DNA of 64,000 bases from Bacteroidales bacterium (GTDB taxonomy: Bacteria; Bacteroidota; Bacteroidia; Bacteroidales; Marinilabiliaceae), in assembly GCA_017960905.1 (NCBI GenBank), contig JAGCYH010000016.1, positions 1 through 64,000 on the forward strand, given 5' to 3'. The notes under the pieces were generated by a model that saw only the letters and a list, made by a program, of their open reading frames with translations, did no database searches and was not told the DNA's origin. Both the position numbers and the translations under genes were made by a program. Each line of letters begins with the position of its first letter. Position 1 is the first letter of the stretch. Below, one piece after another: positions 29,417 through 34,263 of the stretch.

Positions 29417-29513
29417 TTTATCGAATGTCAAATCTCATAAAAATAGCTGACATCAGCAACGATTTTGTCGTTTTTTTTCAAAAAAAGGCGCTTTTTTTTT
29501 CATTTGCGGCCAG

Positions 29514-29572
29514 TTTTGGGTGCGGAAACGCCCTTTGGGGCGTTTTTCGCACCACAAAAAACGATTTTTTTT
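29514..29572 (+). terminator. Terminator-like hairpin in the divergent region ahead of the sugar-binding lipoprotein
   Basis: GGTGCG and AAACGCCC (29519-29533) pair with GGGCGTTT and CGCACC (29538-29553), extended by flanking T/A pairs, then a run of eight T (about 29564-29571). Both neighbouring genes start away from this region, so a plus-strand terminator here must act in a leader or end a small RNA. The rest of 29417-29635 is A/T homopolymer-rich with no gene seen. Confidence 0.6.
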
Positions 29573-29635
29573 GGTTGTCGGGCAACAACCGACAGATATT
29601 TTAATTATTTTTACACACGTTTAAAAGCAAAAACT

Positions 29636-30649
29636 ATGAACAGATTTTTTGTTTCTGCACTGGCAATGTTAACTGCGGCGCTGACATTAGTGTCGTGCTC
29701 AAGCGGCAAAAGCGACGAGAAAGAAGTTGCAGTGCTGATACCATCGGATATAACGCGATTTGTGAATATGGCGGAGGTCATGAAATCGAAATTGGCCTCG
29801 AAGGGCTATAAATGCCGCATTTACAATGCGAAAGGCAACGAGACGACACAGATGGCACAGGCCGACACCGCGATAATGCGCGGTGCGAAATGCATCTGCA
29901 TAAGTGCCGTCAACGGCAACACGGCCGCATCGATAGTACGCCTTTGCCACAACAACGACGTGCCCATTTTTGCCTACAACCGACTTGTAAACAACTGCGA
30001 CTTGGATTGCTTCGTGGCCGGCGACGTGGAGAAATTGGCAAAAATGATGTTTGAGACTGCCCACCAGAAAAAGCCACGCGGCAATTACTACATCATCTGC
30101 GGTGACCGCTTCGACCTCAACGGTGAGAAACTGAGGAAGAATCTCGACAAACTCATAGACCCGTTTGTGTCGATGGGCGACATCAACTTGATATACAGGA
30201 CATACGTAGAGAATTGGGACCCGAAAATGGCGGCACGTGAGATACGTCAGGCAATCAACTTGTCGGGCAAGAAGCCCGACGCCGTGCTGGCCGGCTACGA
30301 CGGCATGGCACGCGCCATATCTGACGAGTTGGAACAACTCTATGGTTCGGTCGATGGCATAGCTATTACCGGGCAAGATGCTGAATTAGAATCGATTAAA
30401 TACATACTCGACGACCGTCAGACAATGACAGCGTACCACCCGACCAACGAAGAGGCCGAGACATGCGTAAGCGTGGCCATCAGCCTTGCCGAAGGCAAGG
30501 CTGTCAAAGGACTGACAAGCACTACATTCAACGGCACCAACAATGTCCCGACAATAAATGTGTCGTCGATTCTGATTGACAAAGACAACATCGAGAGTCT
30601 GCTCGTGAACAAATACAAGGTATATAAGAAAAGCGAGATATACGATTGA
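29636..30649 (+). CDS. Periplasmic sugar-binding lipoprotein (XylF/RbsB-like)
   Basis: 337 residues from ATG 29636 (MNRFFVSALAML). A longer reading from 29465 runs through the hairpin and is discarded. A lipoprotein signal ends in LVSC (lipobox). The body is a type I periplasmic-binding fold: VAVLIPSDITRF, then CICISAVNGNTAASIV near 83-98 and IFAYNRLV, the region that contacts the sugar in D-xylose-binding protein. No ABC transporter genes are adjacent, so transport is unlikely to be its job here. The divergent neighbour is a chemoreceptor, so a role as a ligand-presenting sensor partner is a reasonable inference. Confidence 0.8.
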   Translation: MNRFFVSALAMLTAALTLVSCSSGKSDEKEVAVLIPSDITRFVNMAEVMKSKLASKGYKCRIYNAKGNETTQMAQADTAIMRGAKCICISAVNGNTAASIVRLCHNNDVPIFAYNRLVNNCDLDCFVAGDVEKLAKMMFETAHQKKPRGNYYIICGDRFDLNGEKLRKNLDKLIDPFVSMGDINLIYRTYVENWDPKMAAREIRQAINLSGKKPDAVLAGYDGMARAISDELEQLYGSVDGIAITGQDAELESIKYILDDRQTMTAYHPTNEEAETCVSVAISLAEGKAVKGLTSTTFNGTNNVPTINVSSILIDKDNIESLLVNKYKVYKKSEIYD

Positions 30650-30738: not shown

Positions 30739-32103
30739 TCAGATTATCTTTTCGAGTTTTGAAGTAGTCTTGTCGATCTCCTCCTGCGGCAATTCGAAGT
30801 TGGTGAGGTCGCCCGCCAGATACTGGTCGTAAGCGGTCATATCGATAAGGCCGTGCCCCGAAAGGTTGAAGAGGATAGTTTTCTGCTTGCCCTCCTCTTT
30901 GCACTTATTCGCTTCGCGAATAGTGGCCGCAATGGCGTGAGCCGACTCAGGTGCCGGAATGATGCCTTCGGCCTGTGCGAAGAGCTCGGCAGCCTTGAAC
31001 GATTCAAGCTGCGGGATATCGACGCCGTGCATATAATTGTCCTTAATGAGCTGGCTGACAATAGTTCCGGCGCCATGGTAACGCAAACCGCCGGCGTGAA
31101 TGTGAGCCGGTGCGAACTCATGACCGAGGGTGAACATAGGCAGCAGCGGTGTGTAGCCAACCTCGTCGCCGAAGTCGTACTGGAAGACGCCGCGGGTAAG
31201 TTTAGGGCAAGCCGATGGTTCGGCGGCGATGAACTCAGTCTTTTTGCCGTCGAGGATATTGTGGCGCATGAACGGGAACGAGAGACCGCCGAAGTTAGAA
31301 CCGCCGCCGAAGCAAGCGATGATAGTGTCGGGGTATTCGCCGGCCATTTCCATTTGCTTTTCGGCTTCGAGACCGATGACCGTCTGATGGAGCGACACGT
31401 GGTTGAGCACACTGCCGAGCACGTATTTGCAGTTTGGCGTGTTGAGCGCAAGCTCAACAGCCTCAGAGATGGCAGTACCCAGACTGCCCTGATAAGTAGG
31501 GTTGGCAGTGAGAATGTCCTTACCAGCGCGTGTGCCGAGACTAGGCGAGGCAACAACCTGAGCGCCAAACGTTTGCATAATCAGTCGGCGGTATGGCTTC
31601 TGGTTGTAGCTGACCTTAACCATGAACACCGCAAGTTCGAGGCCGAACACTTTGGCAGCGTACGAGAGAGCAGCGCCCCACTGGCCTGCGCCAGTTTCGG
31701 TAGTGATGTTGGTAACGCCCTCTTTTTTGCAATAATAGGCCTGAGCCAAAGCCGAGTTTAGCTTGTGTGAGCCGACAGGGCTCACACTTTCGTTCTTGAA
31801 ATAGATGTGAGCCGGAGTGTCGAGGGCTTTTTCGAGGCCATAGGCACGTACGAGCGGTGTCGAACGGTAGTTTTTGTACTGATTGCGAACCTCCTCGGGA
31901 ATGTCAATCCACTTGTCGGTAGAGTTGAGTTCCTGCTCGGCGCAAGCGCGGCAGAAGATAGGCGTCATCTCATCAACCGTAAGGGGCTTTTTTGTGCCCG
32001 GGTTGAGAATAGGCAGCGGCTTGTTTTTCATATCAGCCACAATGTTGTACCACTGAGTCGGTATTTCGCTCTCGGGTAGAATGAATCTTTTTTGTTTCTC
32101 CAT
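30739..32103 (-). CDS. trpB: Tryptophan synthase beta chain-like enzyme, TrpB2 type
   Basis: 454 residues, the long TrpB2 form. Diagnostic features: RSTPLVRAYGLEK, then VSPVGSHKLNSA with the PLP lysine near residue 115, TETGAGQWGAAL, and the glycine loop CFGGGSNFGGL. It joins indole and serine to give tryptophan. TrpB2 often acts without TrpA and may salvage indole. No trpA or other trp gene is adjacent. The gene is preceded by a complete tryptophan attenuator, which is strong evidence that its expression answers to tryptophan supply. Confidence 0.95.
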   Translation of the reverse strand: MEKQKRFILPESEIPTQWYNIVADMKNKPLPILNPGTKKPLTVDEMTPIFCRACAEQELNSTDKWIDIPEEVRNQYKNYRSTPLVRAYGLEKALDTPAHIYFKNESVSPVGSHKLNSALAQAYYCKKEGVTNITTETGAGQWGAALSYAAKVFGLELAVFMVKVSYNQKPYRRLIMQTFGAQVVASPSLGTRAGKDILTANPTYQGSLGTAISEAVELALNTPNCKYVLGSVLNHVSLHQTVIGLEAEKQMEMAGEYPDTIIACFGGGSNFGGLSFPFMRHNILDGKKTEFIAAEPSACPKLTRGVFQYDFGDEVGYTPLLPMFTLGHEFAPAHIHAGGLRYHGAGTIVSQLIKDNYMHGVDIPQLESFKAAELFAQAEGIIPAPESAHAIAATIREANKCKEEGKQKTILFNLSGHGLIDMTAYDQYLAGDLTNFELPQEEIDKTTSKLEKII

Positions 32104-32151: not shown

Positions 32152-32188
32152 AAAAAAACCGCAGGCCTCAAGGGACTGCGGTTTTTTT
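32152..32188 (-). promoter_or_regulatory. trp attenuator: terminator with competing antiterminator
   Basis: On the minus strand CCGCAG (32164-32159 and complement 32181-32176) forms a G/C stem with an 11-base loop between A7 and T7 runs, a terminator 49 bases before trpB2. The leader segment 32217-32206 can pair over 12 bp (two or three G-U) with 32169-32180, which contains the 5' arm of the terminator, so the two structures exclude each other. Confidence 0.85.
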
Positions 32189-32217
32189 GACAAACACAAA
32201 CAGAGCACAATCCCTTG

Positions 32218-32265
32218 TTACGAAAGGATTTGCCACCACCACCAATATTTGTTTGTATTTGTCAT
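32218..32265 (-). CDS. trp leader peptide with four consecutive tryptophans
   Basis: 15 residues, MTNTNKYWWWWQILS, from ATG 32265 to TAA 32220-32218. Four tandem TGG codons (32244-32233) are the tryptophan sensor. A ribosome stalled there leaves 32217-32206 free to form the antiterminator. A ribosome that reaches the stop codon, right next to that segment, covers it and lets the terminator form. The layout matches classical enterobacterial trp attenuation. A related leader class has been described in Bacteroidota as the Bacteroid-trp RNA. I infer this is a member. Confidence 0.88.
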   Translation of the reverse strand: MTNTNKYWWWWQILS

Positions 32266-32294
32266 AACATGAAACGCTTTCTATTTTTCAATTG

Positions 32295-32325
32295 CAAAGG
32301 AATAGATTAATTTTTAAAAAACAAA
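32295..32325 (-). promoter_or_regulatory. Promoter of the trp leader and trpB2
   Basis: Minus-strand TTTG (32325-32322) and TTCCTTTG (32302-32295) are 19 bases apart, a near-consensus Bacteroidota promoter. Transcription would start about 25 bases before the leader peptide. Confidence 0.7.
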
Positions 32326-32354: not shown

Positions 32355-32386
32355 AAAAAAAAATCCGCTGACATAATCAACGGATT
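32355..32386 (-). terminator. Terminator of the peptide transporter unit
   Basis: AATCCG and TGA (32362-32371) pair with TCA and CGGATT (32377-32386) with one mismatch. On the minus strand a run of nine T follows. It lies about 270 bases after the transporter stop and just before the trp promoter. The stretch 32387-32655 between is AT-rich and shows no gene, apart from a small hairpin near 32617-32636. Confidence 0.75.
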
Positions 32387-32655
32387 GGAATTCATTATAT
32401 ATAATTGTTTGGGAAGATTTAAGTGTGTGTATTCTTCGTTAATTTTTACAATGCAAAAATACACTGACATCTACCCTAACCCATTGAAAATAACAATCAA
32501 TTTATATAATTATCGGACTAAAATGAGGCTCAAAAAATTGTACAATTCGGTCATTTGTCAACAGTAAACTATTGATAATCAACACTAACATCGTTCTATT
32601 CAAATTATACAATTGGCTTTTCGCGATGCGAAAAAAAGACTTTTTTCCGACGGAA

Positions 32656-34263
32656 TTATTCCACTCCGTACATCATGCGTTTGAGCAGCGGACAGAGGGC
32701 GAGCAGAAGCACAGCAGCCACAGCAGCCATCACGGCGAACAGAAGGAAGAACGTGTCGAGCGCGTCGATAGTGACGCCACAAAAGACAGCCGGTTCAGAG
32801 TTGGGCGTTGGCAACAAAGTTGCCAACTTGCCCGCCAGAATGTTCGAAGCGGCATTGCTCATAAACCAAACGCCCATAAGCAGCGAAGCCAAATGCTTGG
32901 GCGACAACTTATTGACCATCGAGAGGCCAATCGGCGAGAGACTAAGCTCGCCGATGGTATGAATGAAGTACAGCGCCACAAGCCAGAACATGCTTACTTT
33001 GGCCGTAGTATCGACATTGTGAGTGCCCACGGCAATGACAACGTAGCCTATGGCGAGCAGAAACAGGCCAATGGCCTGTTTCACAGGTGATGCGGGCTCG
33101 AGGCGGCGCTTGGCCAGACGTTCCCACAGCAGCGCCATAATGGGCGCAAAGCAGACTACAACGATAGGGTTAATGGACTGGAACCAAGTGGTTTTGAACT
33201 CACAACCCAGCAAAGTGCGGTCGACCTGCTTGTCGGCAAAGATTGTGAGCGACGAGCCAGCCTGCTCGAAAGCGCTCCAGAAGAAGATGACAAACAGCGC
33301 TATGATATAAATGACGCCAATGCGGCATTTCTCGATACGCGAGAGGCTGCGGTCGGTGATGATGAAGAGCGGCAGTGCGATGGATATGGCATAGATGGCC
33401 GCCGAGGTGTAGTCGTTGAGGGCGAGAAGCGAGCCGCTGTCGGCGAAGAGGGTGTCGGACGCGAACAAGATGAAGAGTCCGACGGCGATGGCGATGCAGA
33501 ACACGACCCTGAGAGGCGAATTTTTCACACGGACTTTTTGCTCGGTTTTTGCCTCAGGCTGAGCAACTTTCTTATGCGGCAAGCCGATAGGCTTGCCGTC
33601 GAAAGTAACAAGATAGCGGTTTTTGAACAGTACAAAGACGGCCACCGAGAGCAGCATGGCGACGCCAGCCGAGAAAAAGCCCCACTTGAAGGGCGACAGG
33701 TCGTTCCAACTGCCCTCGCCCAGCGTGCCGCAGACAAAAGGCGCTATGAAGGCGCCGACATTTATGCCCATATAAAATATGGTATATGCCGAGTCTTTGC
33801 GATGGTCGGCAGGCGCGTATAGGTCGCCGACCATGGTGGATATGTTGGGTTTGAAGAAACCATTGCCAAGTATGAGCGCCACGAGGCCAGAGAGCAACAA
33901 CGCTGTAGCCAACGAGTTATCGACGCTTGCGTCGATAACACCGCCTTCGGCAAAAATGGACTGACGGACAAAGCAAGCACTTGCAAAGAGAAGGAACTGC
34001 CCGAGAGCCATAATAAGTCCGCCAACAACGATAGAACGGCGGTTGCCCCAATAACGGTCGGCGATGTAACCGCCCAAGAGCGGCGTGAGATAGACAAGAC
34101 CTGTGTAAGAGCCGTAGATTTGCGACGAGACCTTCTCGTCGAAAAAGGCGGCCACAAGGTAAAGCACAAACAAAGCGCGCATGCCATAATAGCTGAAGCG
34201 CTCGGCCATTTCGGTAACGAAAAGAAGATAGAGGCCTTTGGGGTGTTTGTTTATCATATTCAT
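32656..34263 (-). CDS. Proton-dependent oligopeptide transporter (POT/PTR2 family)
   Basis: 535 residues, a major-facilitator protein with 12 or more membrane segments. The family signature is clear: the N-terminal HPKGLYLLFVTEMAERFSYY with the ExxER motif near residues 18-22, and GGYIADRYWGNRRSIVVGG near 64-82. A later FFKPNISTMVGDLY matches the PTR2 signature 2. It takes up di- and tripeptides with protons across the inner membrane. The start could equally be the ATG six bases later. The gene next upstream on this strand encodes an unrelated membrane protein 27 bases away. Confidence 0.94.
   Translation of the reverse strand: MNMINKHPKGLYLLFVTEMAERFSYYGMRALFVLYLVAAFFDEKVSSQIYGSYTGLVYLTPLLGGYIADRYWGNRRSIVVGGLIMALGQFLLFASACFVRQSIFAEGGVIDASVDNSLATALLLSGLVALILGNGFFKPNISTMVGDLYAPADHRKDSAYTIFYMGINVGAFIAPFVCGTLGEGSWNDLSPFKWGFFSAGVAMLLSVAVFVLFKNRYLVTFDGKPIGLPHKKVAQPEAKTEQKVRVKNSPLRVVFCIAIAVGLFILFASDTLFADSGSLLALNDYTSAAIYAISIALPLFIITDRSLSRIEKCRIGVIYIIALFVIFFWSAFEQAGSSLTIFADKQVDRTLLGCEFKTTWFQSINPIVVVCFAPIMALLWERLAKRRLEPASPVKQAIGLFLLAIGYVVIAVGTHNVDTTAKVSMFWLVALYFIHTIGELSLSPIGLSMVNKLSPKHLASLLMGVWFMSNAASNILAGKLATLLPTPNSEPAVFCGVTIDALDTFFLLFAVMAAVAAVLLLALCPLLKRMMYGVE

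Follow-up and report, generated by a model that had tools for sequence, protein, structure and literature searches.

A candidate tryptophan attenuator upstream of a stand-alone trpB2 gene and its counterparts across the Bacteroidales

A 64,000-nt stretch of DNA from a Bacteroidales bacterium (hereafter "the window") carries, upstream of a stand-alone trpB2 gene, what is very probably a classical ribosome-mediated transcription attenuator that would sense charged tRNA-Trp and control the salvage of indole. TrpB2, a tryptophan synthase beta chain, functions independently of TrpA; arguments about its physiological role have so far drawn on enzymology and on where the gene occurs. That a Trp-codon switch recurs before lone trpB2 genes provides genetic evidence that, to the cell, TrpB2 is an enzyme of tryptophan supply.

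Anatomy and predicted switching of the trpB2 leader

Sequence inspection places all elements of the attenuator on the minus strand, 5' of trpB2. An earlier description of this region (the initial annotation) had listed a promoter, a 15-residue leader with four Trp codons, and a terminator with A7 and T7 flanks. All are present on that strand, as follows (window positions):

30739-32103, minus strand: trpB2, encoding a TrpB-like PLP enzyme of 454 aa (NCBIfam NF009057 and TIGR01415)
32322-32325, minus strand: putative −33 promoter element, TTTG (sequence)
32295-32302, minus strand: putative −7 promoter element, TTCCTTTG (sequence; TAnnTTTG-like motifs also lie 5' of the leaders of relatives)
32218-32265, minus strand: leader peptide ORF, MTNTNKYWWWWQILS followed by a stop (sequence; Trp-rich short ORFs occupy the same place in relatives)
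32233-32244, minus strand: four tandem Trp codons, TGGTGGTGGTGG, putatively regulatory (sequence; W.?W motif conserved in relatives)
32206-32217, minus strand: antiterminator 5' strand, CAAGGGATTGTG (12 bp with 32169-32180; duplex beats shuffles)
32169-32180, minus strand: antiterminator 3' strand, CGCAGTCCCTTG (takes up part of the loop and most of the 5' arm of the terminator)
32152-32188, minus strand: intrinsic terminator, A7-CCGCAG-(TCCCTTGAGGC)-CTGCGG-T7 (sequence; stem covariation in 11 leaders)

Three features by which a Trp attenuator is recognized were found here. First, there is a short predicted ORF with a run of Trp codons, as judged from the sequence and from the W.?W leaders of relatives; it starts with ATG at 32265, encodes 15 residues, and has a TAA stop ending at 32218. 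Second, an intrinsic terminator (32188-32152), with covariation in its stem, lies 5' of the structural gene. Third, masked folding and duplex shuffles point to an antiterminator that excludes the terminator, can be reached by a ribosome that has arrived at the stop codon, and is left free by one stalled at the Trp codons. The putative promoter fits the Bacteroidetes type, with 19 nt between TTTG (32325-32322) and TTCCTTTG (32302-32295); the −33 and −7 elements are assigned by the general Bacteroidetes promoter consensus.

The antiterminator duplex (32217-32206 with 32169-32180) has 12 bp, two of them G-U pairs, exactly as the initial annotation had drawn it. The annotation was also right that the leader stop codon touches the antiterminator, the 5' strand of which begins at the very next base. 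The duplex energy of −20.1 kcal/mol was not equalled in any of 1,000 dinucleotide shuffles made from the 5' segment (p = 0.001). Because the antiterminator 3' strand overlaps the terminator, the two folds are mutually exclusive.

The distance from the leader to trpB2 bears on whether control might instead be translational, i.e., whether the leader acts mainly through coupling, reinitiation, or masking of the trpB2 start rather than through termination. Leader ORFs positioned 11–14 bp from a gene start are over-represented in Bacteroidetes (PMC4833913), which favors such a mechanism. Here, however, 114 nt separate the leader stop from the start of trpB2, with the terminator and its T7 tract in the gap, and we consider translation-level control very unlikely.

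A second terminator-like hairpin, ATCCGTTGA...TCAGCGGAT with a T-run, was seen by eye at 32360-32392 on the minus strand, where it separates the trpB2 promoter from an oligopeptide transporter gene (32656-34263); it probably terminates the transporter transcript. The segment 34291-35346 encodes a predicted membrane protein with a long, repetitive, Q/P-rich tail (QQPQQPQQPLQPQQPQ).

Switching was modeled by folding only the RNA 3' of an assumed ribosome footprint, which was taken to extend 12 nt beyond the A-site codon's first base, a size drawn from general knowledge of the ribosome. A ribosome placed on the last Trp codon gave a terminator probability of 0.06, with the 12-bp antiterminator dominant; one placed at the stop codon gave a terminator probability of 0.94. 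We infer a response to tryptophan in the following direction. When tryptophan is plentiful, the leading ribosome would pass the four Trp codons and reach the stop codon, covering most of the antiterminator strand at 32206-32217; the terminator would then fold, and the transcript would end near 32152. When tryptophan is scarce, the ribosome would stall on the UGG run, at least 15 nt upstream of the stop codon, leaving the antiterminator strand free to pair with the terminator 5' arm and loop. With the terminator blocked, RNA polymerase would read on into trpB2, and TrpB2 could then convert free or cross-fed indole, together with serine or O-phosphoserine, to tryptophan. Anatomy, ribosome-masked folding, and conservation (see below) all support, at the level of sequence, the attenuation logic that the initial annotation had proposed.

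Conservation among relatives and across the order

We looked for leaders in 94 trpB2 upstream regions from nearer relatives (80 named loci plus members of the genus), using a fixed rule that called for a W.?W leader and a terminator. The rule was positive for 16 of the 94, compared to 1 of 4,700 shuffles and none of the 94 reverse complements. Four further leaders (L033, L046, L073, and L096) were recognized by eye, that of L073 with a single Trp codon. The carriers are rumen Salinivirgaceae and Paludibacteraceae MAGs (TrpB2 82–91% identical), Paludibacter, with WRW leaders, and Prevotella-like MAGs. No leader was found in the upstream regions examined of the close relatives L030 and L031 or of any same-genus ortholog (75–79% identity). 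The leaderless same-genus orthologs, along with a second trpB2 copy in the window genome, had suggested that attenuated trpB2 is a one-off; wider sampling refuted this. On a tree of TrpB2, leader presence is more clustered than with shuffled labels and requires at least nine changes, seven of them forced by starred branches (with L046 scored as leaderless).

Both the Trp codons and the competing pairings, on whose conservation in relatives the initial annotation had staked its reading, are retained. The leader peptides themselves vary widely (e.g., MVNNLNSKQWWWRQSEIKVED, MNNLISYNRWWWLS, and MNHYPSNSRRWWRWS), while the Trp codons, the position of the stop codon, the antiterminator, and the terminator are kept; the arrangement is conserved functionally rather than by sequence. 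In 11 leaders, 96% of the cells in the terminator stem are paired and 15 cells are altered on both sides; four of nine pairs covary, with a covariation score attained by none of 500 shuffles. Whereas the window has AAGGG/CCCTT as its antiterminator core, several relatives have GGAGG-type strands matched by CCTCC in the loop, and these differences are compensatory; in alignment A1, most of the antiterminator covariation comes from the row of the window itself. Antiterminator strength in 18 leaders exceeded that of shuffles with a combined p of 1.7e-12, a value that ignores relatedness.

Masked folding of the relatives, with terminators placed by hand, gave a more varied picture. One relative, L032, behaved as the window did, with terminator probabilities of 0.06 (Trp codon) and 0.87 (stop codon), and it is only in these two that equilibrium folding alone yields a switch. 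For most other relatives, the full-length equilibrium prefers the terminator in both ribosome states, and the states differ only while the 3' arm of the terminator is still unmade. Switching in those leaders would therefore have to be kinetic.

The freedom of the peptide sequence also weighs against a TnaC-like arrest, in which the nascent peptide senses free tryptophan and ribosome arrest, not tRNA charging, sets the switch. A short Trp-bearing leader before an indole- or tryptophan-related gene would suit this mechanism, for which TnaC is a precedent in the literature. TnaC-type sensing depends on specific peptide residues, whereas the leaders of relatives are almost free to vary, keeping only their Trp-codon runs and spacing; in addition, a terminator and antiterminator placed at the stop codon is the layout of trpL. 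Arrest by the nascent peptide is thus highly improbable, and tRNA-Trp charging is the preferred signal.

For an order-wide survey, a covariance model (R1) was built from 11 trpB2 leaders and searched in 393 genomes. Its best 30 matches, without exception, are leaders with Trp codons that lie upstream of trp genes: five before trpB2, the remainder before a lone trpB1 or trpE. More than half of the following 40 matches are also Trp leaders, upstream of trpB1, trpE, trpC (L195), trpD (L218), and trpB2 (L225). The trpC gene of L195 (genome G412) and the trpD gene of L218 both have Trp-codon leaders and terminators upstream. These matches suggest that a split trp pathway may have several attenuators in some genomes.

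A census of 131 trpB2 upstream regions from the same genomes was then scored with a fixed rule. A leader and terminator were found in 42 of the 131 but in no reverse complement and in none of 2,620 shuffled sequences; adding two located through R1 gives 44 of 131, with the second copy in the window genome left out. The initial annotation had singled out the lone TrpB2 as an unusual target: the gene does stand alone, but it is not unusual, given these 44 similar cases. Using identity to the window protein as a stand-in for phylogeny, leaders occur in 35 of 64 genes at 50–69% identity, 4 of 59 at 70–79%, and 4 of 8 at ≥80%. The 70–79% class corresponds to the part of the tree with the relatives of gut Bacteroides. 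Antiterminator strength in 36 order-wide leaders gave a combined p of 2.6e-9, ignoring relatedness; by this crude duplex test, the antiterminator alone was non-significant in 24 of the 36.

Within the window genome (3.11 Mb), a pattern search found 41 TGGTGGTGG sites, but at only three places is a short ORF with such a site in frame followed, within 130 nt, by a terminator: 5' of a lone trpB1, of trpEGDCFA, and of trpB2. Thus, one genome has three Trp attenuators. Those before the lone trpB1 and trpEGDCFA (C43:59085-59210 and C43:62882-63005; loci L024, L023, and L025) resemble each other, with leaders MQTYILNSNWWWRLRKHNS and MQTLVLNNNWWWRLRKHNS and identical terminator hairpins. The statement of the initial annotation that control falls on a lone trpB2 and not on a trp operon is correct for trpB2 itself, but the genome also has attenuated trpE and trpB1 genes, to which trpB2 is an addition. 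That the trpB2 hairpin is a mere terminator of upstream transcription beside a coincidental ORF with four Trp codons, as the frequency of hairpins with T-runs between genes might allow, is even less probable than the alternatives above, since the upstream transporter gene already has its own terminator-like hairpin before the promoter (seen by eye), the combination occurs at only three places in the genome, and the census separates real upstream regions from shuffles.

Given these distributions, we prefer to regard the leader as an old trait with losses; repeated gain is the less preferred alternative. A broader reading, which we regard as evenly poised between right and wrong, is that Trp attenuation of stand-alone trpB2 is old and widespread in the order, having mostly been lost in lineages related to gut Bacteroides; that it belongs to a large family of leaders (before trpE, lone trpB1, trpB2, trpC, and trpD) mostly missed by the Bacteroid-trp model; and that indole uptake would be a Trp-regulated salvage route, also in species lacking trpA.

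TrpB2 and the salvage of indole

The window protein scores above the curated cut-offs of TIGR01415 (596.6 versus 518.85) and NF009057 (688.6 versus 366). It has the SHK motif, with K114, when aligned to solved TrpB chains of the same type, the closest being 6hul_B, 4qys_B, and 6hte_B. The gene is monocistronic: its downstream neighbor (29465-30649, a sugar-binding protein homolog) is on the opposite strand. The possibility of a module that travels with its neighbors was rejected, as the genes flanking trpB2 in the window are not within 3 kb of any homologous locus; the gene next to trpB2 homologs is usually convergent or unrelated.

By analogy with characterized homologs, trpB2 probably makes tryptophan from scavenged indole. 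The trpB2 gene of B. thetaiotaomicron (BT_RS23500) aided an E. coli trpA mutant only if wild-type E. coli cross-fed it, a benefit that the authors explained by the use of indole (PMC11535334). The window genome also has trpA, trpC, trpB1, and trpE, and TrpB2 is therefore an addition there. A second trpB2 copy in this genome (L022, C9:4774-6129) is 63% identical and has no Trp leader. Genes of another family (f19) share 91% identity with the window TrpB2, versus 75–79% or 51–53% for same-genus copies, which suggests that trpB2 may have been inherited patchily or transferred horizontally.

In 22 of the 44 cases of attenuated trpB2, trpA was undetected in the genome, so indole from neighbors would be the likely substrate in those cases. 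Attenuated trpB2 was considered as a marker of trpA-less genomes and rejected, the difference (22/44 versus 29/87) not being significant (p = 0.09). Attenuated trpB2 occurs without trpC and without an over-cut-off match to trpA in Paludibacter sp. 221, the record of which carries no MAG label, and in four MAGs, which may be incomplete. Regulated cross-feeding of indole in the rumen and gut becomes directly testable, and the survey indicates a leader family that is without annotation in current RNA databases.

Comparison with known tryptophan leaders

The initial annotation had pointed to the Bacteroid-trp RNA class (RF01692), described in PMC2864571 and PMC6414381. The window attenuator was not matched by this model at the gathering cut-off (49 bits) or at relaxed settings, and none of the trpB2 leaders scanned attained the cut-off. 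By this defining score test, the trpB2 attenuator is outside RF01692. Elsewhere in the window genome, the trpB1 and trpEGDCFA leaders score 46.9 and 48.7, just below 49, and R1 detects the trpB1 and trpE leaders at 34 bits. From these sub-threshold scores and R1 matches, the trpB2 attenuator is best described, in function, as a putative member of a broader Bacteroidetes Trp-leader group that RF01692 captures in part, and it probably shares descent with that group. With Bacteroid-trp RNAs it shares its occurrence in Bacteroidetes, a leader peptide with Trp codons, a terminator, and an alternative pairing close to the stop codon; unlike them, it is unmatched by the model and has a lone trpB2 as its target. 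Furthermore, the trpB2 antiterminator takes the loop and the 5' arm of the terminator, whereas the Bacteroid-trp copies in the window genome, inspected by eye, appear to use the loop and the 3' arm.

The likeness to E. coli trpL (RF00513) lies in the tandem Trp codons, the stop codon adjoining the antiterminator strand, and the mutual exclusion of antiterminator and terminator. The differences are that the trpB2 leader has four Trp codons and trpL two, that the target is a monocistronic salvage gene, and that a separate 1:2 pause hairpin was not identified. RF00513 (cut-off, 41 bits) gave no match in the window up to E = 10, and the leaders of relatives scored 25–27 bits at best.

Actinobacterial trp attenuators, including that of Corynebacterium diphtheriae trpB2A, also place a leader peptide and terminator before a second trpB copy; however, trpB2A is itself a biosynthetic operon with trpA among its genes (PMC1262725), whereas the window trpB2 is a lone gene of the TIGR01415 type. 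Nothing in the open literature searched describes a lone trpB2 under attenuation. The kind of system is classical; what appears to be new is its absence from Rfam, its target, and the frequency with which it recurs across the order.
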